Source: Radicibacter daui (GTDB lineage: Bacteria > Pseudomonadota > Alphaproteobacteria > Radicibacterales > Radicibacteraceae). From it: a stretch of DNA of 64,000 nucleotides. The position numbers and the translations under genes were made by a program. Below, piece after piece: positions 36,531-50,339 of this stretch. Location of the stretch: NCBI GenBank assembly GCA_030657355.1, contig CP131056.1:2066501-2130500 (forward strand), given 5' to 3'. How positions within the stretch are numbered: position 1 is the stretch's first letter; every line of letters starts with the position of its first letter. The notes under the pieces were generated by a model that saw only the letters and a program-made list of their open reading frames with translations, ran no database searches and was not told the origin of the DNA.

Positions 36531-36622
36531 GGAGGGGTGGCCGAGCGGCTGAAGGCAACGGTTTGCTAAACCGTCATACTGGGAAACTGGTATCGTGGGT
36601 TCGAATCCCATCCCCTCCGCCA
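36531..36622 (+). tRNA. tRNA-Ser(GCU)
   Basis: A class II tRNA. Acceptor GGAGGGG pairs with CCCCTCC; the anticodon loop is TTGCTAA with anticodon GCT, reading AGC and AGU. A long variable arm (TACTGGGAAACTGGTA) marks it as serine. The T-loop is GGGTTCGAATCCC, and CCA is encoded. Its 3' 60 bases form the left attachment site of the mobile element, so the gene stays intact after insertion. Confidence 0.96.
36563..36622 (+). repeat. attL core, 60-bp direct repeat
   Basis: It runs from the anticodon loop of tRNA-Ser to its CCA end and is identical, base for base, to 50280-50339. The base on each side differs between the copies, which fixes the repeat length. Crossover probably lies in the anticodon stem-loop or T-arm, as usual for tyrosine integrases. 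Confidence 0.95.
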
Positions 36623-38599: not shown

Positions 38600-39742
38600 T
38601 TACGTCACGTTGACTAAGATTTTATGTTTAGGTGACGGTACGGGTTGCGGCCAGCAGGGAGAGGTTGTGCCAGTATCCGGCGATATTGTATTGGTACGGC
38701 CCCGATCCAACGCGGCCAATGCAGCCGCCTCGAACTCCCGCAGATCATAGCGTTTTTCAAGCTCTTCGATTGGATGGCCTCTCAGGTCGGCAATGAGAAC
38801 GGGTCTCAATTCCCCCTCAGGATTCCAACGAAGGCCCCACCCTTTGATTATCGGACCGTTCTCGAAGCGCGGTGCATCGCAAAGCCACCTGACCGGCTTA
38901 TCAGTGGACCGAAAAAACACCTCTCCAAGATCGATTGCGGGCCGAACGTCGTTTGCCCGCCAAGTCGAGATCGCTTGCCGAAAGCTGCCTCTTGCCTGCC
39001 AGCGGTGGAGAGGGGCGCCATTCACGTAGAGCTGCCTGACATACTCAGCTAGGTTGGCGTCGGTGAAGTCGTCGACGTAACGAGCAGTCGTTGACCGCAT
39101 GTAATTGGCAGCGCGTTCAACGTCGCTAAGCTGATATTCTGCGTCATCGAAATGAATATCATACTTTTTTTCTAGGTATTTGACCGCTGAATCGAACTCA
39201 TCAGCGTCGATATATTCGATGAGCGCATGGAAATGAACGTCGATGATTTCACCTCTGGCAAGAGGTCGGTGATGAACGGCATAGGCGATAACGCGACCGT
39301 GACCGAAGCGGCGATCCAGACGCTTGAGGGCGGCTCGCAGTTCGGCGATGTTGAGCTGATGGCCTTCTCTTAAGCTGCTGACAGGCATGTGGGCCAGCTG
39401 CCTTGAACGCAGCCTAAGCATGTAGAGCTTTGACCCGGGCCGACGATGACCCGGCGCGTCGGCATACATCTTTATTTGTTTGACGGCTTCGTGTTTTTCC
39501 CGTCTGGCATGTGTATTAAAGATGCACCACTTGGCCAGTGATTTGTCTTTCCACGACTTTTTGGCGATCCAGTCGACGTAATCCGGCTCGGCTCGGTCAG
39601 GATCTAGCCCTTGCGCGATAAGTCGAAGTCGCGTTCTGGCGTCTTGGGCAGCCTCCCACTGGCGCTGTTCGCGTTGGGCCGGGGTCATTTTTTCTCCGGC
39701 TCCACGGAAGCGGTGGACCCGGCCCCATCGGTCGATATGCAT
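38600..39742 (-). CDS. HUH-type replication initiator-like protein
   Basis: 380 residues. A central beta-rich segment has HxH at 170 and 172 (IDVHFHALIEY), the metal-binding HUH motif, followed by tyrosines 214 and 222 (NYMRSTTARYV) in the position of the catalytic Tyr helix of rolling-circle Rep proteins. The Arg/Gln-rich N-terminus is probably DNA-binding. No relaxase-specific or helicase domain is seen. It may replicate the excised circle. An AAGGGA site precedes ATG 39742. A pure DNA-binding role without nicking remains possible. Confidence 0.55.
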   Translation of the reverse strand: MHIDRWGRVHRFRGAGEKMTPAQREQRQWEAAQDARTRLRLIAQGLDPDRAEPDYVDWIAKKSWKDKSLAKWCIFNTHARREKHEAVKQIKMYADAPGHRRPGSKLYMLRLRSRQLAHMPVSSLREGHQLNIAELRAALKRLDRRFGHGRVIAYAVHHRPLARGEIIDVHFHALIEYIDADEFDSAVKYLEKKYDIHFDDAEYQLSDVERAANYMRSTTARYVDDFTDANLAEYVRQLYVNGAPLHRWQARGSFRQAISTWRANDVRPAIDLGEVFFRSTDKPVRWLCDAPRFENGPIIKGWGLRWNPEGELRPVLIADLRGHPIEELEKRYDLREFEAAALAALDRGRTNTISPDTGTTSPCWPQPVPSPKHKILVNVT

Positions 39743-39931: not shown

Positions 39932-39982
39932 TTGTGACAAAACGACTGCGGTTTTGGCGATTTTGATGTCGATTTGTCACAA
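39932..39982. repeat. TTGTGACAAA inverted repeat at the mob 3' end
   Basis: Perfect 10-bp arms (39932-39941 and 39973-39982), 31 bases apart; the right arm overlaps the relaxase stop. It is upstream of the Rep-like gene, so it may be an operator or part of an origin. Confidence 0.5.
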
Positions 39983-41629
39983 AGGGTGCTCTTTCTCCCT
40001 CTTCTTTCGGTCGCGCTCATCTTCATCGTCGTCTTCTCGTGGCCTAACCCAGCTCGGCACAAAGGCAGGTGCAGGCGCTGGTTCAGGAGGCTGCGGCGGA
40101 GCGGTGGCCTCCTGAGCGGCCCGGCGTGCGGCTTCGGCTTCGGCCCGGCGCTTCTGCTCGTAAAAGTGCCAGTGCTCGGCGGCGCTTCCGGCCGTCGTAA
40201 AGTCGTTGGCTGCCAGCGCTGCGACGACTTTTGGATCGCGGGCGTCCATCGCCGACCGGATAACCCGCAAGCGCCTCATCTCGGCGGCGTCGGCGGCACC
40301 TTCTGAATAAGCCTTGGCCGTGGTGGCCTCTCTGGCCGTGTAGTGCTGGACTGCTGCTGTTAACTGCTCACCAGCCAGCTTCTCCGCCCTGTGTTTCTCG
40401 GCAGCGGCCTTGGCTGCGGCCCGCTGACCCGCGCCATCGGCCTCTGCCATCAGGGCGGCATGCCGGGTCGGGCTGATGGCGTGGTTCATCACCTGAATGC
40501 CAGCCTGACCGGCAGCAAAGGCCAGCCGGTCGCGCTCTTCGTTGGTGCCGCTGACGTTGATCTCGGTCCAGCCGTCACGGATGGCGTGGGCGATGATTTC
40601 CTTGACGGCGGTGGCGTCAAGCTGGCGACCTTTCAGCGTAACCTTATCCTCGGTGGCGCGGATGAAGCCGCCGTCCTTCAGGAAGTACATCAACGCGCCA
40701 TTTCGCTCTCTGATGCCCTTGAAAGCGGCCATTTCGGCGGTTTTGGCGGCGTCGTATCCGGCTCTTAGGTTGAGCAGCTTGGCAAGGTGGCAGCGTTTGC
40801 GGGCTTCCTTGATTTGGTCAGCGGCGGTGATGCCGAGCTCGATTTCGAGCAAAGCTTCCTCAAGCGCGGCAATTTCGGCCATGAGCTTCTCGGCCTGCCT
40901 GAGGTCGGCTTTTATTTGCCGGTTAGCGGCTAGCCACTCGGCAACCGGTGCGGCAGCGGCGCAGTCAGGGTCGCGCTTCCACGCTTCCCACATGCGGCGT
41001 GGGAAGTCCTTGGCATGGGTTTCTGCCGGGGCTTTGCCGTAGTCCAGACGTACCGGTATCAGCGCTGCTTCCAGCCATTCATTCGCCCGGTCCTCGAACC
41101 ATTTGCGCTTCTGGATCGCGGCGCCCCACCAGTCCGCGTTCGAAGTCTTGCGCTCGCTGAAACCACCGGGTCCAAGGGTCCGACGCGACAGGATGATATG
41201 TGCGTGGGGCTGCTCCTGGCCGTCGCTGGCAAGTGGGGAATGGATGTCGAGCTGCACCGCCAGCCTTTCATCCGTCACCATTGGCTGGACCAGCCATCGC
41301 ACAAAGTCCATGCGGCGGCGCTCCGGGATCTCGCGGGGGATTTCGATCTCAATCAGCCGGGCGGGCTGGCCATCTATGCGGGTTTCGGCGGCGGCAGCGG
41401 CTTGCCAGATGGCTTCTCTTGAGGCGACCCGGACGCCCGGCGGGAGCAATAACAAGCCGCCGCGATGTTCTTCGGCTTTACGGCTGAAGTCATAGACCTT
41501 GCCGTCTGGTTTGGTCATGCGGCCACAGCGCGAGTAAGCCGCGATCTTTATCAGTTCGTGGCCGCGCTTGGGCTGAACCACATCGAAGTCGATGTGACCG
41601 CGCCTGACTTTAATGGATTGTTGGCTCAT
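39977..41629 (-). CDS. MobA/MobL-family (MOBQ) relaxase
   Basis: 550 residues. The N-terminal relaxase domain has IKIAAYSRCGRM (catalytic Tyr region), VYDFSRKAEEHRGGLLLLPPGV, the family's Glu-rich IEIPREIPERRR, and PHAHIILSRRTL carrying the HxH metal motif. The C-terminal half is helical and Ala/Glu/Arg-rich, without primase or helicase motifs. It would nick an oriT and pilot the strand into a conjugative channel. The start ATG 41629 overlaps the small gene upstream by 20 bases. The oriT has not been located with certainty; the 42146-42354 gap is the best place to look. Confidence 0.87.
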   Translation of the reverse strand: MSQQSIKVRRGHIDFDVVQPKRGHELIKIAAYSRCGRMTKPDGKVYDFSRKAEEHRGGLLLLPPGVRVASREAIWQAAAAAETRIDGQPARLIEIEIPREIPERRRMDFVRWLVQPMVTDERLAVQLDIHSPLASDGQEQPHAHIILSRRTLGPGGFSERKTSNADWWGAAIQKRKWFEDRANEWLEAALIPVRLDYGKAPAETHAKDFPRRMWEAWKRDPDCAAAAPVAEWLAANRQIKADLRQAEKLMAEIAALEEALLEIELGITAADQIKEARKRCHLAKLLNLRAGYDAAKTAEMAAFKGIRERNGALMYFLKDGGFIRATEDKVTLKGRQLDATAVKEIIAHAIRDGWTEINVSGTNEERDRLAFAAGQAGIQVMNHAISPTRHAALMAEADGAGQRAAAKAAAEKHRAEKLAGEQLTAAVQHYTAREATTAKAYSEGAADAAEMRRLRVIRSAMDARDPKVVAALAANDFTTAGSAAEHWHFYEQKRRAEAEAARRAAQEATAPPQPPEPAPAPAFVPSWVRPREDDDEDERDRKKREKEHPL

Positions 41630-42145: not shown

Positions 42146-42205
42146 CGCTTCATCTCCGCGTGCGCAGTCTACACATTCATATCCAGTAATCGGTATTCAG
42201 CGAGC

Positions 42206-42220
42206 ATGTCGGAACGACAT
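42206..42220. promoter_or_regulatory. Small inverted repeat in the divergent intergenic region
   Basis: ATGTCG-GAA-CGACAT, 6-bp arms. It lies in the 209-bp gap between the leftward mob unit and the rightward TraY operon, and so could be a shared operator or part of an oriT. Confidence 0.35.
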
Positions 42221-42354
42221 ATAGGCGAGACTGAAAAACGATTACGATTCAATCTTGAGGTTTACGCTTCGCACATTTCAAGAAAACCGGTTCGACTTTC
42301 TGGACTCTGTACTCTAGGCGCCGTTCAATTAAAGGGCACCTCGGAGTTCACGAA

Positions 42355-42660
42355 ATGTCAGAGAAATTGGAAGTGCCACGTCTCGAACTTTCGCAAAGAA
42401 TTGAGACCTTGCGGCAGCGGGAATCTCAACTTCGGCTTCGCGTTGCACAGACGCAGCAGAAGCTGAAAGACACTGATCGCAAGCTTTCCGCTCAGCAAAA
42501 AATCGCGTTGGGCGCTGCATTATTGCGTGCGCTCGAAGCGAAGCCGCAGACATGCGAGCAGATGCGTCGATTTCTTATTCCGCACATCACGCGGCAAACT
42601 GACATTGACGCGCTGAAATCCACGATTTTGTTTCGGGATGTTGGCAATGAAGCCGAGTGA
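42355..42660 (+). CDS. Coiled-coil protein, 101 aa (possible MobC-like accessory)
   Basis: Residues 5-55 form a heptad-rich coil (LELSQRIETLRQRESQL and RLRVAQTQQKLKDTDRKL), followed by a helical part. This size and coil resemble mobilization accessory proteins encoded divergently from MOBQ relaxases, but no direct family match can be claimed. It starts at ATG 42355, and its end overlaps the next gene by 23 bases. First gene of the TraY operon. Confidence 0.6.
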   Translation: MSEKLEVPRLELSQRIETLRQRESQLRLRVAQTQQKLKDTDRKLSAQQKIALGAALLRALEAKPQTCEQMRRFLIPHITRQTDIDALKSTILFRDVGNEAE

Positions 42661-43243
42661 AGCTGACGAGGCTGATGATTGGGCCATGTATCTGGACCAA
42701 CGTCGCCAGTTGGAAGCGTGGCACGCTAACGCCGAGCGCGAAATCAAGCTGGAGCGACTAGCGAAACGGTCGAAGCGTCGTAATTCGATGCGGCTGCAAA
42801 TGCGCGCGTACGCAGATGTAAAAGCATCAGGAAAAGACCCAACCCACAACTTCGAGATGACTTTGACGATGGCAATGTTTGCTTTCGTCAACGGCCTCGA
42901 TACCGGTTTGGCTCGGGCTTTCGTCCAGCAGTGCCGCGCGATCCGGGCAAATGACGCTGGCCGGTTTGTCGATGAAGTCGAGGCCGTTGGCGTTCGGTTG
43001 TTGGCGCGCGGGGTCAACGGTGAAGCCAGCGCAAAGCCGCTCACCGGTGAGCAATTGGCGGGTGATGACCGGCTGGCTGTCGAGGGCCTTTGCGGCATCG
43101 TTCGGCCCGCCGAACCCAAAGAAGAAGAGCAAAAATCGACCTCGAAGGCGGTCACCAAGCCGCTTCCGCCAATATCATCTGAAATCGAGGGAATGTCGGA
43201 TGAAGAAGAACCAGAATTCTTTTCACCAGCTGTCACTTTTTAG
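42638..43243 (+). CDS. Hypothetical protein, 201 aa
   Basis: A soluble charged protein. The N-terminal coil is basic (AEREIKLERLAKRSKRRN), with a helical centre (MTLTMAMFAFVNGLDTGLARAF) and an acidic disordered tail (EGMSDEEEPEFF). It overlaps both neighbours (23 bases upstream, 44 downstream), so it is tightly coupled with them. No family recognised; it may be a cytosolic partner of the membrane genes that follow. Confidence 0.6.
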   Translation: MLAMKPSEADEADDWAMYLDQRRQLEAWHANAEREIKLERLAKRSKRRNSMRLQMRAYADVKASGKDPTHNFEMTLTMAMFAFVNGLDTGLARAFVQQCRAIRANDAGRFVDEVEAVGVRLLARGVNGEASAKPLTGEQLAGDDRLAVEGLCGIVRPAEPKEEEQKSTSKAVTKPLPPISSEIEGMSDEEEPEFFSPAVTF

Positions 43244-43391
43244 TCGCCTCTGCCTTGCCGCAGCGATGGTATTTGGCGGGTACGTCGTGTGTAGCGTGAT
43301 GGGCCAGATGCCCGAAACTCGGGTGCCGAGCGCTATTGCCATGTTTTTCGTGGTCTGCTCGGCGCTGTCGATGATCCGTAAGGGCGGCTGA
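43200..43391 (+). CDS. Small two-helix membrane protein, 63 aa
   Basis: Starts MKKNQNSFHQLSLF and has two hydrophobic segments (LCLAAAMVFGGYVVCSVM and SAIAMFFVVCSALSMI). A GAGGGA site lies eight bases before ATG 43200, inside the end of the previous gene. It ends one base before the TraY-like ATG. Its position suggests a partner of that protein or an exclusion-like inner-membrane factor. Confidence 0.65.
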   Translation: MKKNQNSFHQLSLFSRLCLAAAMVFGGYVVCSVMGQMPETRVPSAIAMFFVVCSALSMIRKGG

Positions 43392-43392
43392 A

Positions 43393-46092
43393 ATGAAATG
43401 GTTGCGCGTCCTGTCGGCTGTCGCTCTAGGCAGCGGCGGCGTTCTTGGAGCGCTGGGCGGCGGTGGCATCGCGGCGTCGACCCGGTCAGCCTTTGACGGG
43501 CACCGTGCGATTTTTCGTGCATTTTCCCAAGTATTACAGCGGAAGCCCTCATCTGCTGTAGCCAGCACCACGCAACCAGAGCTTCGGTTGCGATGGTACT
43601 GGATCACGTTACTGACGGCCCTGTTAGTCCTCGTGGCAGGGTCGTCAGTAGCGTCCACAATCTATACTTTGACGGACCAGACCAATCTGGATCCTGCGCT
43701 GCGGGCAATCGGGCTGATTTTTCCAGACTCTGACCATGCCAATGCCTTGACCACCATGGTCGCAAAATTCATGGCGATCCTGTCCATTTTGGCTGCGTCA
43801 GGCCTTGTTTATCACTCCCTGCTGGCAATTACCGCGATGGCCGAAAGCGGGCGCTTTCCGCACCGACCGATGGCGACCGTTGGCTTCTGCGTGGCTATGG
43901 CTTTGCTCCTGCCCGGTGGCGGTGGGGGGCTGAATCTTGGACAGCGGACGGTCGCAGAAGCGGCGAGGTGGTCCAGTGACACCGCGACCGAACTTTGGAC
44001 TGACTTCGCAAAAGCCACCCTGTTCGTGGACTACGAGCACAACGGCGGCGATCTGACGATCAACGTGGACGTTGGCGGCTACGACCTCGCGCGGGGCGTA
44101 TTTTATTCCGAGCTCTGCGCCGCATGGGTCGGTCAATACTGGCCGAACAGCGACCAGTATAAAGAGTATATGCCCGGAGAACCGATGCCCTCGGCCCCTG
44201 ATCCGGTTGGCGTCACAGCCAACGACGGCGGCTTGAGTTGGGATTGGGGCCTGTGCGGCTCGATCCGCGCGCTGCCCGCTGCTGGGACCGATGAGCCAGC
44301 GGAAGCGGCTTTCAAGACGGCCCGGATCTCAGCGATCAGGACGATGATTTCGAGCTTGCGGCAAAGCGGGATCGTAGAGCGCGCGGTCACCAGCTTTATG
44401 GCCATTGGAGCGGATGGCCCGACGCAATGGCCCGGTGATGGTGAGCTGCTGGCGGCCATTGGACCGGCAGCGCAGGGCTATAACGCTTCGATGAACGCCG
44501 CCGCTCGTATCTATATGGCGAAGGCCAACAGCCAGGCACTGACCAATGCCGTTGATGCCGTGGAGCAACGGGGCTGGACGGCAGCAGGAGCGCTCTGGCG
44601 GACGATCAGCGCGGCTAATGAAGCGGTCTATCATCAGGCTTCGTTGCGGCCTTCATATGTGAAGCAGTCCGACGACTACGTTGCCATGGGCAAGAAGGAG
44701 CCGGACCCACAACATGATGCGTTCGGCTGGCTGAGCCTGAAGGCGCGCATCGATCAGCAGCTTGTGAGGGAAGAGCGCCGAACCGAGCTTGCTGGCGACG
44801 ATCTGGCTGCCGCTGGCGACAAGCGGGACAACCTGCTTGCGAAGTTGCTTAACCCGTTAACGCGACCAGTTGCTGAACTGCTGGCGGATTCTCTATCCAC
44901 CAACGATGCCGATCCTGTCGGCTCTTCTATGAGCGAGGGCCACAAGCTCATCAACATTGTCGACACGGCTTGGTTGGCTGGAGCTGGCGTCGCAGTCGCC
45001 GCAAAGAACACAGCGGCGGACATGGCTGGTATCGATGGCGCCTTCGACTGGGCTGCCTCTTTCGTAAAGCCGTTTTTGTGGATCGCGTACACTATCGGGG
45101 TCGTGCACGCGTACATCATTCCGCTGATACCGTACGTCAGCGTAGTTTTTGCGGGCGTGAACTGGATGATCGCGCTGGTCGAAGCGCTGCTGGCTATGCC
45201 GATTATTTGCGTTCTTGCGTCGAGATTGGACAGTGACGGGCTAATTCATCAAGTCGCCCGGCCCGGATTATTGATCATCGGCAACATCGTATTTTTGCCG
45301 ATTTATACGGTATTTGCGTTGGCCTCGACCTACTACCTGCTGCCGCCCGCCCTGCAAATCGTAGATGGCACCTTCAGCGCTGCATTCACTGGAGCGCAGG
45401 GTGGCTTCACCATGGAGGTAGGCGGGCTGCTCGCTGTGATGGCAACCAAATTGTATTTGGATTGGATGATCATGAACCGTGTTTTTTCCGTAGTTCATGA
45501 GATCCCGAACCGGCTTCTCAAATATTTCGGGCTCAGCGGCGAGTTGACGGACGCGCGCGGGCACTCCGGCTTCGTCGGTGTTGTCGGCGGTGGTGGCGGG
45601 CTGCCGGGACCGGGCGCCGGGGGTGGCGGTGGTGGCCGCAAAGGCGGGCGCCGGGGCGGTAGTTTAGGTGGTAGTGGCGGTGGGCGCGGCGGGCTTCCCG
45701 GCATCTCCAAGGTGCCGGGGGCAGGCGGCGGCGGTGGCTCTAGCGGTGGTGGCAGTCTGACGCCTTCAAGCTGGCTATCTGGTGATGCCGGTGGTGGCGC
45801 GTCTTCTGGCGGTGGCGTCTCTGGTGGGGGTGCGCCATCCGGCGATGCAGGGGGCGGAGGCGGCTTTGGCGGGGGCGGCGACAACACCGAGGCCGACATC
45901 TGGTTCAATCGCGGTTCGGTGGGCAACCTTTCACAGGATGACTGGGGGCAAGTTGAGTCGGCGTATGAAAAGTGGTGTGAGGAACGGGCCAGCAAGGGCA
46001 AGCCAGTAGGCGACGATTTCAACGTAAATAAATATGCGGCGTGGGCGATTGGTCGACAAAATGAGCGCCGGGGCGGCGCTTCCAAGGTTTGA
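43393..46092 (+). CDS. DotA/TraY-family integral membrane protein
   Basis: 899 residues. The N-terminal helix-rich part has the family arrangement: a first pair of helices (YWITLLTALLVLVAGSSV), then SILAASGLVYHSLLAITAMAESG. A long periplasmic domain (about residues 190-530) follows. The C-terminal helices contain YIIPLIPYVSVVFAGVNWMI and VEALLAMPIICVLA, then FSVVHEIPNRLLKYFG, all typical of DotA/TraY. Residues about 729-832 are an extreme Gly/Ser-rich tail, then a small folded end. TraY is a channel subunit of IncI-type conjugation and a target of entry exclusion. It is the last gene of its operon and the only T4SS structural gene in the element. Confidence 0.78.
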   Translation: MKWLRVLSAVALGSGGVLGALGGGGIAASTRSAFDGHRAIFRAFSQVLQRKPSSAVASTTQPELRLRWYWITLLTALLVLVAGSSVASTIYTLTDQTNLDPALRAIGLIFPDSDHANALTTMVAKFMAILSILAASGLVYHSLLAITAMAESGRFPHRPMATVGFCVAMALLLPGGGGGLNLGQRTVAEAARWSSDTATELWTDFAKATLFVDYEHNGGDLTINVDVGGYDLARGVFYSELCAAWVGQYWPNSDQYKEYMPGEPMPSAPDPVGVTANDGGLSWDWGLCGSIRALPAAGTDEPAEAAFKTARISAIRTMISSLRQSGIVERAVTSFMAIGADGPTQWPGDGELLAAIGPAAQGYNASMNAAARIYMAKANSQALTNAVDAVEQRGWTAAGALWRTISAANEAVYHQASLRPSYVKQSDDYVAMGKKEPDPQHDAFGWLSLKARIDQQLVREERRTELAGDDLAAAGDKRDNLLAKLLNPLTRPVAELLADSLSTNDADPVGSSMSEGHKLINIVDTAWLAGAGVAVAAKNTAADMAGIDGAFDWAASFVKPFLWIAYTIGVVHAYIIPLIPYVSVVFAGVNWMIALVEALLAMPIICVLASRLDSDGLIHQVARPGLLIIGNIVFLPIYTVFALASTYYLLPPALQIVDGTFSAAFTGAQGGFTMEVGGLLAVMATKLYLDWMIMNRVFSVVHEIPNRLLKYFGLSGELTDARGHSGFVGVVGGGGGLPGPGAGGGGGGRKGGRRGGSLGGSGGGRGGLPGISKVPGAGGGGGSSGGGSLTPSSWLSGDAGGGASSGGGVSGGGAPSGDAGGGGGFGGGGDNTEADIWFNRGSVGNLSQDDWGQVESAYEKWCEERASKGKPVGDDFNVNKYAAWAIGRQNERRGGASKV

Positions 46093-46112
46093 TCGCTCCG
46101 GCATCGACAGAG

Positions 46113-46230
46113 GAGTTATCCACCCGCAGGGCAGCCGACTTAGGCTGCATGTCCATGGCTCCGGAGCAATCGAGCGCGGTTCTATCGCGCTGGCTCGATT
46201 GCGTAGGGGCTGTGGACATGTGGGTAACTC
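46113..46230. other. Origin-like nested inverted repeat
   Basis: Outer arms GAGTTATCCAC (46113-46123) and GTGGGTAACTC (46220-46230) differ at one base. Inside lies an imperfect stem around 46149-46178 and 46186-46219 with a seven-base loop. The outer arms contain DnaA-box-like TTATCCAC. No gene is seen in 46093-46433. Confidence 0.6.
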
Positions 46231-46291
46231 TGGGCTCCGCCCCCTCGAATTCATTCACGCAAGGATTCAAGTTTTTGGCGTGAGAACGCCT

Positions 46292-46337
46292 GACAGAGCG
46301 GAGCATCTACAGGCGCTGCTGGATGCTCCGCTCTGTC
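46292..46337. repeat. Perfect 16-bp hairpin before the methyltransferase
   Basis: Arms 46292-46307 and 46322-46337 are perfectly complementary with a 14-base loop. There is no T-run, so it is not an obvious terminator. A smaller CCTGTGGACAGG palindrome follows near 46345. With the larger nested repeat to the left, it fills the gap between traY and the restriction-modification genes. Confidence 0.6.
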
Positions 46338-46433
46338 CGAGTTCCTGTGGACAGGTTGAAGCCCCTCCTTTAGTTCAATGGGCCGTGAGAGGAGGCGCCT
46401 CTCGAAATTTCATTCACCGTTTTGGTTAGTCGT

Positions 46434-48152
46434 ATGCGTGCGCATCCTCGCTCTCCTGTCGAAGGGTTTATTCCCGGCCTGTCTCCTGTCGCCGAGGCGT
46501 TGGAAGAGATGGCACGGGCTGGTGTCGAAGCTCGCGGCGCTATATTCACTAAGCCCGAGGTCGTTGAATTTATTCTCGATCTAGCAGGCTATACTGCGGA
46601 TAGGCCGTTACATCGGTTTAGGTTGCTGGAGCCGTCGTTTGGTGACGGAGATTTTCTCCTGCCTATCATCGAGCGTTTGTTAGAGGCTTACGCAAGAGAG
46701 CGAGCGCCTGCCGCTGATGTCGTGGCAGATTTGCAGCGGGCTATTTGCGCTGTTGAAGTGCATAGCAAGACCGTGAGCCGGACCAAGGACAAGGTAAGGC
46801 GGCTTCTCGTAGAAAATGATTTTTCGGAGGAACAGGCCGAGGCTCTTGCCTCTAGCTGGATCATCGAAGGTGATTTTCTGCTAGTCGCCCTGAGCGGGAA
46901 ATTTACCCATGTGGTTGGAAACCCGCCGTATGTCCGGCAAGAGCTTATTCCGAATGCACTTTTGTCTCTGTATAGATCCCATTACAGCACGATATATGAT
47001 CGTGCCGATCTGTACGTGCCCTTTATCGAGCGGTCACTATTGAGCCTTGGCGATGAAGGTGTTTTGGCGTTCATATGCTCGGATCGGTGGATGAAAAACC
47101 GCTATGGCGGGCCGCTCCGTGAGCTGGTTGCCAAGAATTTTCACCTTACTCACTACATCGATATGGTGACGACGCAGGCATTCCAATCAGACGTTGTTGC
47201 CTATCCAGCCATCACCGTTATTTCGCGCGAGCGGCCCGGGAAGACACGTATCGCCCATCGACCCGAAGTTACATCGGCCACGCTACGTAAATTGGCGAAG
47301 GAGATGTGTTCGGATGAGCTACCTGATGGAAGTGGCTTGGTTGAGGTTTCGGGCGTGGCAAATGGCTCTGAACCTTGGATTCTGAATTCTTTCGATCAGT
47401 TGGCGTTGGTTAGGAAGCTTGAGGCTTCGTTCCCGCTGATTGAGGAGACGGGGTGCCGAATTGGTATCGGCGTTGCCACTGGAGCTGATGCCGTCTTTGT
47501 GGGGCAGTATGATGAGCTGCCCGTTGAGGAGAGCCGGAAGCTTCCTCTGGTCATGACGAAAGATATTCACGGCGGTGTAGTCGATTGGCGCGGCAAGGGT
47601 GTCATTAATCCATTTAATGAAGACGGGTCAGTGGTTCGTCTGGACGATTATCCGAAAATGAAAGTCTACATTGAAAAACATGAGGGCGCCGTTCGCAGGC
47701 GGAATGTTGCGAAGAGAAGTGGCGCGGGCTGGTTCCGAACCATCGATAAAATCAATCCTCAGCTAACTAATCGAGAAAAACTGCTGATTCCGGACATTAA
47801 GGGAGAGGCTAATGTAGTTTATGAAGGTGGTGAGTATTATCCTCATCATAATCTTTACTATATTACTTCGGATGAGTGGGACGTTCGTGCGTTACAGGCA
47901 GTCTTGTTGTCTGGTATCGCTAGACTGTTTGTTGCGACTTACTCTACTCGGATGAGCGGGGGGTATTTGCGCTTCCAAGCCCAATATTTACGTCGCATAC
48001 GCCTTCCGTATTGGAGTTCTGTGGCTGAGGATGTTCGGCAGGCGCTTATCGATGCGGCAATTGCAAATGATATTAATGCGTGTAATGAAGCAACTTTTGG
48101 GTTGTATCGTTTCACGGATGAAGAGCGCGCTATAGTTGGCGGAAGCGCTTAA
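46434..48152 (+). CDS. Adenine-specific DNA methyltransferase (XhoI/PaeR7I-type)
   Basis: A class I SAM methyltransferase, 572 residues. The SAM loop is [14 protein letters not shown], and the catalytic motif is NPPYVRQE, the N6-adenine NPPY signature. The rest is a target-recognition and C-terminal domain with [11 protein letters not shown] and [16 protein letters not shown] as in Eco57I/PaeR7I relatives. It should protect host DNA at CTCGAG together with the nuclease gene 18 bases downstream. ATG 46434 is used; an in-frame TTG is at 46422. The GC content is visibly lower than that of the chromosome. Confidence 0.85.
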
Positions 48153-48170: not shown

Positions 48171-48932
48171 TTGCTAGATCTGGCCGATTACGAACAGCAG
48201 GCACGTGAAGCCGTTAAGGCGTTTTGGGGGAATAGAGAAGTCGCTAGGGCGAAGCAAGTTGAAAGCGGCAATAGCGATCAGGGTGAGCGTTCCGGTGTCA
48301 CCGGTGGCAAGAATATGGACGGCTTCCTTGTCCTTATTCAGGATATCGTGCGCCGAAATGGGCTTGCACACGCTCAGATTTGCATAGAGCGACGTTTGCT
48401 CACACTTCCCGGATTTTTTCGTCCAACGAAGCTGTGGGATATCCTCGTTCTGAACGGTGGTCGGTTGGTTGCCGCTCTTGAGCTTAAGAGCCAAGTTGGC
48501 CCTTCTTTTGGCAACAATTTCAACAACAGAACTGAAGAGGCAATCGGCACGGCTCTTGATCTTAAGGTTGCCTTCCGGGAGGGAGCCTTGGGGCAGGGGG
48601 CGCCGCAGCCGTTCGTAGGCTGGCTGATGCTATTGGAGGACTGCGACAGATCCAGAGAGCCGGTACGTGATGCATCTCCGCATTTCGGAACATTCCCCGA
48701 GTTTAATGGGGCTTCTTACTCTCAGAGATACAACATTCTCTGTCAAAAGTTGGTTCAGGAACAACTATATACGGCAGCTTGTTTCCTCAGTTCTCCCCGC
48801 GAGGCCGTTTATAATGGGGAATACAGGGAAATGTCTGAAAGTACGGGGCTGAGGAGCTTTGTGTCCACCCTTGCAGGGCATATTGCTGCCGAAGCAAGTC
48901 GTGGACCGTCGGCTGCGGGTTTTTTATTTTAG
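48171..48932 (+). CDS. XhoI/PaeR7I-family type II restriction endonuclease
   Basis: 253 residues. The family core is present: [27 protein letters not shown], given here by its parts, with the PD-(D/E)xK-like acid and ELK catalytic residues, then [17 protein letters not shown] and [14 protein letters not shown]. Members cut C/TCGAG. The start is TTG 48171 with GAAAGGA upstream, a weak start that fits low nuclease expression after the methyltransferase. No controller (C) protein gene is seen. The pair acts in defence against phage and in plasmid-like stabilisation of the element. Confidence 0.88.
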
Positions 48933-49067: not shown

Positions 49068-50201
49068 TCAGAGCTTCTTTGCGTTGAGCTTGCGCGCAAT
49101 GTCACTGGGCTTGGCGTTTAGATAGCCCAACAAGGACTGTGCGGATTTGTGCCCGCTCTGCGACTTGAGTTCACCCAGCGTCAGACCTGCGGCTGCCATT
49201 CGTGACAGGCTCTCGTGGCGCAGGTCGTGCCATTTCAAATTACGGACCCCGGCTGCCATCTTTGCTTTTCTCCAGCGGTAATGAACCGCTGCGCGATTCA
49301 AGCTGAACAGTTTGCCAGTTCGTCGGGCCTCGGGAAGCTGCTCAATGTAATGGTCCAGAGCTGCGATGGCATCGTCTGACAGAACGATCTGGCGGGGCTG
49401 TCCGTTTTTTGTAGTCCTTTTGTCGATTACCGTTGTTCCTTGCGCTCGTCTAATTTCTTCGTGATTAAATTTCAGCAACTCGGACTTGCGCAATCCGGCA
49501 CAAACGGCGATGCGATACAGGGCGAGCATCTGCGCAGCGTCAGGGCCTTCGGCCAGCGCCAGCAGGACGCGCTCTTCCTCTCCTGCGCTGCCTTCTTCCT
49601 CGTCGGCGTCTTGCAGACGCCGATCGCGTGGCGGCGTCTGTGGTGGCAGAATCACATCTGACACTGGATTGTGCAGGCCTTTGATGCCCCATCCGTGATT
49701 GCCGGTTCCGTCCACGTCGGCCCTCGCGGCGTGTGTGAAAAGCGAGCTGAGCGCGAATACGTCGTTTCGTATCGTGTTAGGGCTCTTACCGTCTTTCAGC
49801 CGCGCGTTAATGTGCAGTTGGAGGTCTCGCGGCAGATCGGGGCTCTCCAGACGCTCCGCCGCAATTGGATGGCGACGCCACGCCTTCAACCGGTTGCTCT
49901 TTTCTTTAAAACCCTTCTCTCTGACGGCCACGGTGTTGTTAAATAGCTCAAGTGCTCGTTCCAATGTCCAACCGGAATGCGGCTTGCCGTCGTCCGGCGG
50001 CAGTTCTGGGGCAAGGCCGAATTTAACGTGGAGGTGGGGCGGCAGCAGATCTCGGTCGGGCCAGCGGCCCTCATCAATGGCAGCCTTGACGCGGGTTTCC
50101 CACTTCTTGGCGGCGGTGATAGCGCCAAACGTTAACCCGAAAGAGACCCCTCGGTACCTGATGTGAGCTAAGTACCGACCGTTTCGCTGGATAACTGACA
50201 T
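49068..50201 (-). CDS. Tyrosine site-specific integrase
   Basis: A 377-residue tyrosine recombinase. The N-terminal arm-binding domain opens MSVIQRNGRYLAHIRYRG; a SAM-like core-binding domain follows (LPRDLQLHINARLKDGKSP). Catalytic residues: Arg in GLRKSELLKF, Lys in RTTKNGQPRQI, His and Arg in WHDLRHESLSRM, His in SQSGHKSAQSLL and the nucleophile Tyr in LLGYLNAKP. ATG 50201 has AGGA six bases upstream and leaves the TGCAACA repeats outside the gene; starts at 50207 and 50237 are less likely. It would insert the element into tRNA-Ser and, with the AlpA-like protein, excise it. Confidence 0.93.
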   Translation of the reverse strand: MSVIQRNGRYLAHIRYRGVSFGLTFGAITAAKKWETRVKAAIDEGRWPDRDLLPPHLHVKFGLAPELPPDDGKPHSGWTLERALELFNNTVAVREKGFKEKSNRLKAWRRHPIAAERLESPDLPRDLQLHINARLKDGKSPNTIRNDVFALSSLFTHAARADVDGTGNHGWGIKGLHNPVSDVILPPQTPPRDRRLQDADEEEGSAGEEERVLLALAEGPDAAQMLALYRIAVCAGLRKSELLKFNHEEIRRAQGTTVIDKRTTKNGQPRQIVLSDDAIAALDHYIEQLPEARRTGKLFSLNRAAVHYRWRKAKMAAGVRNLKWHDLRHESLSRMAAAGLTLGELKSQSGHKSAQSLLGYLNAKPSDIARKLNAKKL

Positions 50202-50209
50202 TTTCATTC

Positions 50210-50228
50210 CTGCAACAATGCTGCAACA
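50210..50228. repeat. TGCAACA arm-type repeats, right end
   Basis: Two TGCAACA units directly in front of the integrase gene and 52 bases from the attR core. They match 36689-36706 exactly over 18 bases and in the same orientation. They could also let integrase repress its own promoter. Confidence 0.6.
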
Positions 50229-50279
50229 GAAATTCAAAATATCATCAGAAACCGCAGAAACAAAGGGAATTGGAAGGGA

Positions 50280-50339
50280 TTGCTAAACCGTCATACTGGG
50301 AAACTGGTATCGTGGGTTCGAATCCCATCCCCTCCGCCA
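50280..50339 (+). repeat. attR core, 60-bp direct repeat
   Basis: An exact copy of the tRNA-Ser 3' half (36563-36622) without the 5' half, so it makes no tRNA. It marks the right end of the element. Ordinary chromosomal sequence resumes after it. Confidence 0.95.

Follow-up and report, generated by a model that had tools for sequence, protein, structure and literature searches.

What would a mobilizable element do with a single inner-membrane subunit of a conjugation machine that it does not otherwise encode? The question is posed by a locus of Radicibacter daui, lying in a window (the whole 64,000-nucleotide stretch of DNA that was analysed) in which a preliminary description had picked out a lone TraY-like gene and had likened it to the TraG carried by the genomic island SGI1.

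A DotA/TraY subunit on an integrative mobilizable element

Membership of the DotA/TraY family is certain at family level. The preliminary description had called the protein TraY/DotA-type and had let that reading hang on a profile match; hmmscan against NCBIfam returns TIGR04346 (DotA_TraY) at 172.3 bits (E 1.7e-50, cut-off 100 bits) over positions 24-656 of 656, nearly the whole profile. NF033886 (T4SS_DotA) scores 82 bits, under its cut-off of 500, and the protein is therefore placed in the TraY/DotA family rather than as DotA proper, whilst phmmer against the PDB matches the solved DotA structures 9ngy and 9nh0 (E 4e-5). Six hydrophobic segments emerge from a simple hydropathy scan (residues 71-89, 121-139, 519-537, 561-579, 592-610 and 626-644), arranged as N- and C-terminal sets flanking a large soluble region, as in the TraYs of IncI and of the Xanthomonas plasmid pXCV19, and a long Gly-rich tail starts after residue 715. 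A single-sequence AlphaFold2 model reached a pLDDT of 38 and is unusable for the fold. The protein is very divergent, with a best identity of 23-25% and a long branch in the tree: tblastn against plasmids gave 100 records, with a best match of 25% identity and none at or above 60%, and searches by peptide patterns in genome contigs and viral contigs found no close relative of the TraY or of the relaxase; the genome sets at the level of the host's family and order consist of the host's own genome alone.

The carrier is an intact element of about 13.7 kb, lower in G+C than its surroundings, bounded by a direct repeat of the 3' end of tRNA-Ser(GCT) (Table 1); the repeat is 66 bp long, with its last 60 bp identical and its two mismatches within the first six bases. 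The relaxase and integrase frames are open and the att sites complete. With an integrase, 60-bp identical att repeats and a MobA/MobL relaxase, and without a mating-pair formation system, it is an integrative mobilizable element, in agreement with the preliminary description. Pfam matches the relaxase with MobA_MobL at 69.8 bits (cut-off 26.7) and LPD7 at 28.9 bits (cut-off 27); a PHAH motif is present, and the NCBIfam MobQ profile scores 92 bits, under its cut-off of 200. Divergent from the relaxase operon is an operon made up of traY and the three ORFs that precede it. The presumed oriT region between the two operons contains no structured region (folding z-score -0.77) and no RSF1010-type nick site above chance.

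Table 1. Features of the element and its integration site, in window coordinates.
Feature	Position	Strand	Basis
tRNA-Ser(GCT), the target of integration; attL is its 3' end	36531..36622	+	ARAGORN; direct repeat
attL core repeat, 60 bp identical to attR	36563..36622	+	direct repeat
380-aa protein with DVHFHALIEY (HUH-like) motif; candidate replication/nicking protein	38600..39742	-	motif by eye
MobA/MobL-type (MOBQ-like) relaxase with C-terminal LPD7 domain	39977..41629	-	Pfam, NCBIfam
Divergent intergenic region between relaxase and traY operons; presumed oriT region	42146..42354	.	position only
101-aa protein encoded at the head of the traY operon; candidate relaxosome accessory (inference)	42355..42660	+	ORF
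201-aa soluble protein, overlapping the preceding ORF	42638..43243	+	ORF; without hydrophobic segment
63-aa protein with two hydrophobic segments (13-31, 41-59), immediately 5' of traY	43200..43391	+	hydropathy
Solitary DotA/TraY family inner-membrane T4BSS subunit	43393..46092	+	899 aa; TIGR04346 172 bits; PDB DotA 9ngy
Eco57I-type adenine methyltransferase, cargo	46422..48152	+	Pfam Eco57I 84.3 bits
XhoI-family restriction endonuclease, cargo	48171..48932	+	Pfam XhoI 298 bits
Tyrosine integrase	49068..50237	-	Pfam Phage_integrase 58 bits
attR core repeat	50280..50339	+	direct repeat

No significant Pfam, PHROG or NCBIfam match was obtained for the 101-aa, 201-aa or 380-aa proteins. The motif of the last resembles the HUH motif found in relaxases or in proteins of rolling-circle replication, and the element may replicate once excised. 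CTCGAG, the XhoI site, is absent from the element (about 13.8 kb, 4 expected from base composition) and occurs three times in the window against 21 expected, counts to be read in the light of a crude base-composition expectation and of a specificity that may differ in this particular enzyme.

The gene's solitary state extends from the element to the host. Pfam and NCBIfam scans recognise no other T4SS component among the element's ORFs, which upholds the original statement that TraY is its only T4SS structural gene. Across the host genome (5.06 Mb, two contigs) there is no second TIGR04346 match, and the two markers used genome-wide for a complete T4SS, DotH/IcmK (PF12293) and VirB4 (PF03135), are both absent; as controls, PF12293 is found in 4 of 11 and 7 of 10 other records and in 14 of 15 genomes, and PF03135 in Caulobacter. 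As the host has neither DotH nor VirB4, any helper must come from outside: the element is mobilizable, and is without a helper in its present host.

The neighbourhood of traY was compared with that of R64/IncI and IncL/M, where the same protein family serves as the donor-side target of exclusion. There, TraY sits inside a complete tra region with TraX directly 5' and the gene at the excA position directly 3', whereas the window has no detectable TraX and no recognisable downstream exclusion gene. The 63-aa protein was considered as a TraX, resembling in its two-segment layout and its position a 67-aa protein encoded 5' of the Microvirga TraY, but was set aside: its hhalign probability against TraX is 0.3, and sequence similarity did not exceed that of shuffled controls. 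Between traY and the methylase (46093-46421) no ExcA-like gene was recognised by eye or by annotation; the sole frame there, 46034-46429, overlaps both genes.

Solitary TraY genes on other replicons

With PF12293 as the marker of a type IVB core, TraY occurs without DotH in eleven records or genomes besides the window element. PF12293 is missing from pXCV19 (19 kb, MOBQ), from linear plasmids of Klebsiella and Salmonella, and from TraY-bearing records of Raoultella (43.8 kb), Microvirga (161 kb), Komagataeibacter (90 kb, MOBF) and Azospirillum (919 kb); three more enterobacterial plasmids and one genome of the host's class (G050) complete the list. DotH accompanies TraY in pND6-2, in one plasmid of Stenotrophomonas, in Bosea and in M. 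extorquens (on the megaplasmid of strain AM1), as well as in records of IncI, pOXA-48, Xanthomonas, Rhizobium, Acetobacter and Methylosinus. Among 385 genomes of the host's class, TraY is present in 16 and DotH in 15, with TraY lacking DotH in two (the host and G050) and DotH lacking TraY in one (G114). Two or three DotA/TraY genes in tandem occur in five genomes with the DotH core (G135, G236, G318, G307 and G218). The plasmids pND6-1 and pND6-2 were considered as an orphan and helper pair and discarded, since the plasmid with TraY, pND6-2, has DotH as well.

Restriction systems are found on several of the plasmids with an orphan TraY. A PilV shufflon adhesin gene is present on the Microvirga record, and major pilins of type 4 pili on Raoultella and one Klebsiella linear plasmid; these are IncI-type parts for recipient recognition, and their co-occurrence with orphan TraY is anecdotal.

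A maximum-likelihood tree of 28 TraYs, labelled as orphan or core-linked, interleaves the two kinds: parsimony requires six changes of state, at least three of them forced by well-supported branches, from which it follows that the solitary state arose repeatedly. The pXCV19 TraY is nested within a core-linked clade (100/99), and a single orphan clade (100/99) unites the TraYs of the enterobacterial linear plasmids. Partly through near-copies, the orphan labels cluster more than they do after shuffling (about 2% of shuffles are as low). The window TraY, on its long branch, falls with moderate support among TraYs of Alphaproteobacteria, some of them orphan and others core-linked. With the same moderate support, its closest group appears to be alphaproteobacterial and MPF_I-type, not IncI/IncL, and the IncI-like helper envisaged at the outset was too specific.

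Some orphans bring a partner. A TraX profile matches N-terminal extensions of the TraYs of Komagataeibacter (an orphan), Acetobacter and Bosea (hhalign 96.7%, E 3e-10), and in the Microvirga orphan a separate protein matches those TraX-like extensions (95.9%), so that some solitary loci carry a TraX-TraY pair. The 96.7% is for the set of extensions, which reads as a TraX-TraY fusion in three alphaproteobacterial TraYs (L035, L040 and L050). Two-segment proteins of the linear plasmids and of Raoultella were also tried as TraX and are individually unsupported by hhalign.

Two groups of carriers come closest to the window element in organisation. The first comprises pXCV19 and its relatives, likewise small and mobilizable, with a MobA/MobL-type relaxase, TraY as the sole annotated T4SS gene and no DotH; unlike the window element, pXCV19 is a plasmid rather than integrative, and its TraY lies near a Stenotrophomonas/Pseudomonas MPF_I clade at about 20% identity to that of the window. 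The same MOBQ-TraY module is on X. citri pB2_V1/V3 and, with TraY broken, on X. hortorum p66. X. euvesicatoria 85-10 holds both pXCV19 and pXCV183, a plasmid typed as conjugative MPF_I with an intact TraY of its own, the two TraYs being 47.3% identical over 732 positions; Icm/Dot genes were reported in this strain in a 2023 study (PMC10432156). In X. euvesicatoria LMG930, the helper-type TraY of pLMG930.2 (L048) is annotated as two overlapping ORFs. The idea that pLMG930.2 is a broken helper complemented by an orphan was dropped, since the pXCV183 TraY is intact in 85-10.

The second group is the pBSSB1-type linear plasmids of Enterobacteriaceae, which share with the window element a solitary intact TraY, the lack of DotH and a protein with an LPD7 domain. 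They differ in being linear replicons with no relaxase annotated, and in the exchange of TraY cassettes that is visible there.

Database records annotate single genes as 'DotA/TraY family protein'. A search of titles and abstracts for 'TraY family protein' found no open-licence paper on solitary TraY, and neither 'TraY' nor 'DotA' occurs in three papers on linear plasmids (PMC9453081, PMC6860452 and PMC1876496). The assertion that no element of this sort had been described thus holds for the open-licence literature, in which no description of the TraY/type IVB form was found; it does not hold for sequence records, where solitary TraY recurs. The general kind, a mobilizable element with a substitute for a helper subunit, is already known from SGI1.

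Exchange and selection of TraY alleles

On the linear plasmids, TraY is 69-84% identical (69.5-84.4%) where the backbone protein DUF927 is 97-98% identical, with dS of 0.8-1.1 for TraY against 0.04-0.06 for DUF927. Full-length nucleotide matches to one TraY fall at either 97.7-100% (11 records) or 73-74% (8 records), with none between, yet the DUF927 identities of the two classes overlap (91.7-100% and 85.5-97.6%). As TraY type does not follow the backbone, plasmids that are otherwise alike have swapped TraY as a cassette. These TraYs are least conserved in their C-terminal tail and in parts of the stretch from residue 200 to 550. Since dS is raised along with dN, the divergence reflects replacement by distant alleles rather than site-specific positive selection. 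Such exchange fits what would be expected of a specificity determinant, with a neutral recombination hotspot as the alternative.

The flanking genes up170 and dn141 also vary with TraY type, and are exchanged together with it on linear plasmids L002, L036, L043, L044 and L045. The dn141 product has three hydrophobic segments and is encoded 3' of TraY, at the position of excA in IncI; it could be the cognate exclusion gene.

Orphan TraYs appear to be maintained. Between pXCV19 and X. citri pB2, dN is 0.017 and dS 0.236 (dN/dS about 0.07), and between linear-plasmid alleles dN/dS is 0.12-0.21, low values that indicate purifying selection on orphan TraY; all of these figures come from relatives, the traY of the window having no close one. 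A pXCV19-type TraY that is intact on pXCV19 and pB2 has lost its frame mid-gene on X. hortorum p66_OSU778 (L059).

Possible roles of a solitary TraY

The reading preferred here, to which we give a probability of about 0.5 as a whole, is that the element would travel via the conjugation machine of a helper with a type IVB (Dot/Icm, MPF_I) secretion system and would supply one of its parts. The element's TraY would be made when such a helper enters or co-resides, and, in the inner-membrane channel, would take the place of the helper's TraY or mix with it; the machine would change in specificity, most likely evading ExcA-type exclusion in cells that already hold the helper, with the outcome that the element's own transfer would be favoured. 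Use of a T4BSS helper, incorporation of TraY and altered exclusion are steps that we infer, and escape from exclusion, taken by itself, is put forward more tentatively than the rest.

Two precedents that the preliminary description had invoked are borne out by the literature. In IncI, exclusion by ExcA has TraY as its target on the donor side, according to PMC8923210, which cites Sakuma 2013. In SGI1, TraGS is 37% identical to the TraGC of IncC, can replace it and disables entry exclusion (PMC5389848). Like SGI1, with its divergent copies of helper subunits (TraNS/TraHS/TraGS), the window element is integrative and mobilizable and carries a homologue of a T4SS subunit known as an exclusion target, and the divergence of the pXCV19 and pXCV183 TraYs is comparable to that of TraGS and TraGC. 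SGI1 differs in relying on the F-type T4SS of IncC and on TraG, where the window element has a type IVB TraY and a helper that is hypothetical. Replacement of a helper TraY is backed indirectly by purifying selection, by allele swapping and by the presence in one strain of a MOBQ plasmid with an orphan TraY and an MPF_I plasmid with a divergent one. Against it, the host genome holds no helper, the searches brought up no relative of the element and no oriT was recognised. MOBQ-type relaxases, moreover, are often mobilized by MPF_T helpers, which have no TraY, and this too counts against the account. As the window TraY stands on a long branch at 23-25% identity, its compatibility with any known helper is a guess.

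A divergent subunit in an oligomeric channel could instead poison assembly, and the solitary TraY would then be a dominant-negative protein that blocks an incoming or resident T4BSS, as fertility inhibition or defence. The restriction-modification cargo of the element, and the restriction systems of several other carriers, would suit such a role, but TraY travels with a relaxase both here and on pXCV19 and its relatives, allele swapping fits specificity at least as well, and pXCV19 co-resides with a conjugative plasmid in 85-10; interference is accordingly regarded as unlikely. That traY is all that is left of a conjugative element that has decayed, with no current role, is regarded as quite improbable: mobilizable elements can arise through loss of conjugation genes (reviewed in PMC11389934), and p66_OSU778 has a broken copy of the pXCV19-type gene, but the same single gene is intact on unrelated elements in Alpha- and Gammaproteobacteria, and the low dN/dS of the relatives, if not of the window gene itself, speaks for a function. 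A function apart from every T4SS, such as that of a membrane channel in its own right or of an exported ring, would suit a gene that at present has no machine to join in its host, but is very improbable given the interleaving of core-linked and orphan TraYs in the tree, the fact that several carriers combine the gene with relaxases and IncI-type pilus genes, and the lack of any sequence hint of an independent role.

Substitution of a helper subunit may apply well beyond this locus. It is possible, at somewhat less than even odds, that solitary TraY is a widespread accessory which hitchhiking elements have acquired independently and which gives type IVB machines a new specificity, with the diversity of exchangeable TraY alleles driven by the exclusion that recipients exert, and with the window element as an integrative example. 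If so, the trick of SGI1, bringing one's own copy of the subunit that is the target of exclusion, would be a general strategy rather than an F-type peculiarity, and would have evolved anew with type IVB systems, in integrative elements as well as in small MOBQ plasmids and in linear plasmids. This would suggest how the apparently 'non-mobilizable' linear plasmids of Enterobacteriaceae move, and would make a solitary TraY a marker that predicts the helper class of an element, whilst the natural series of TraY alleles would render the specificity between TraY and exclusion testable.
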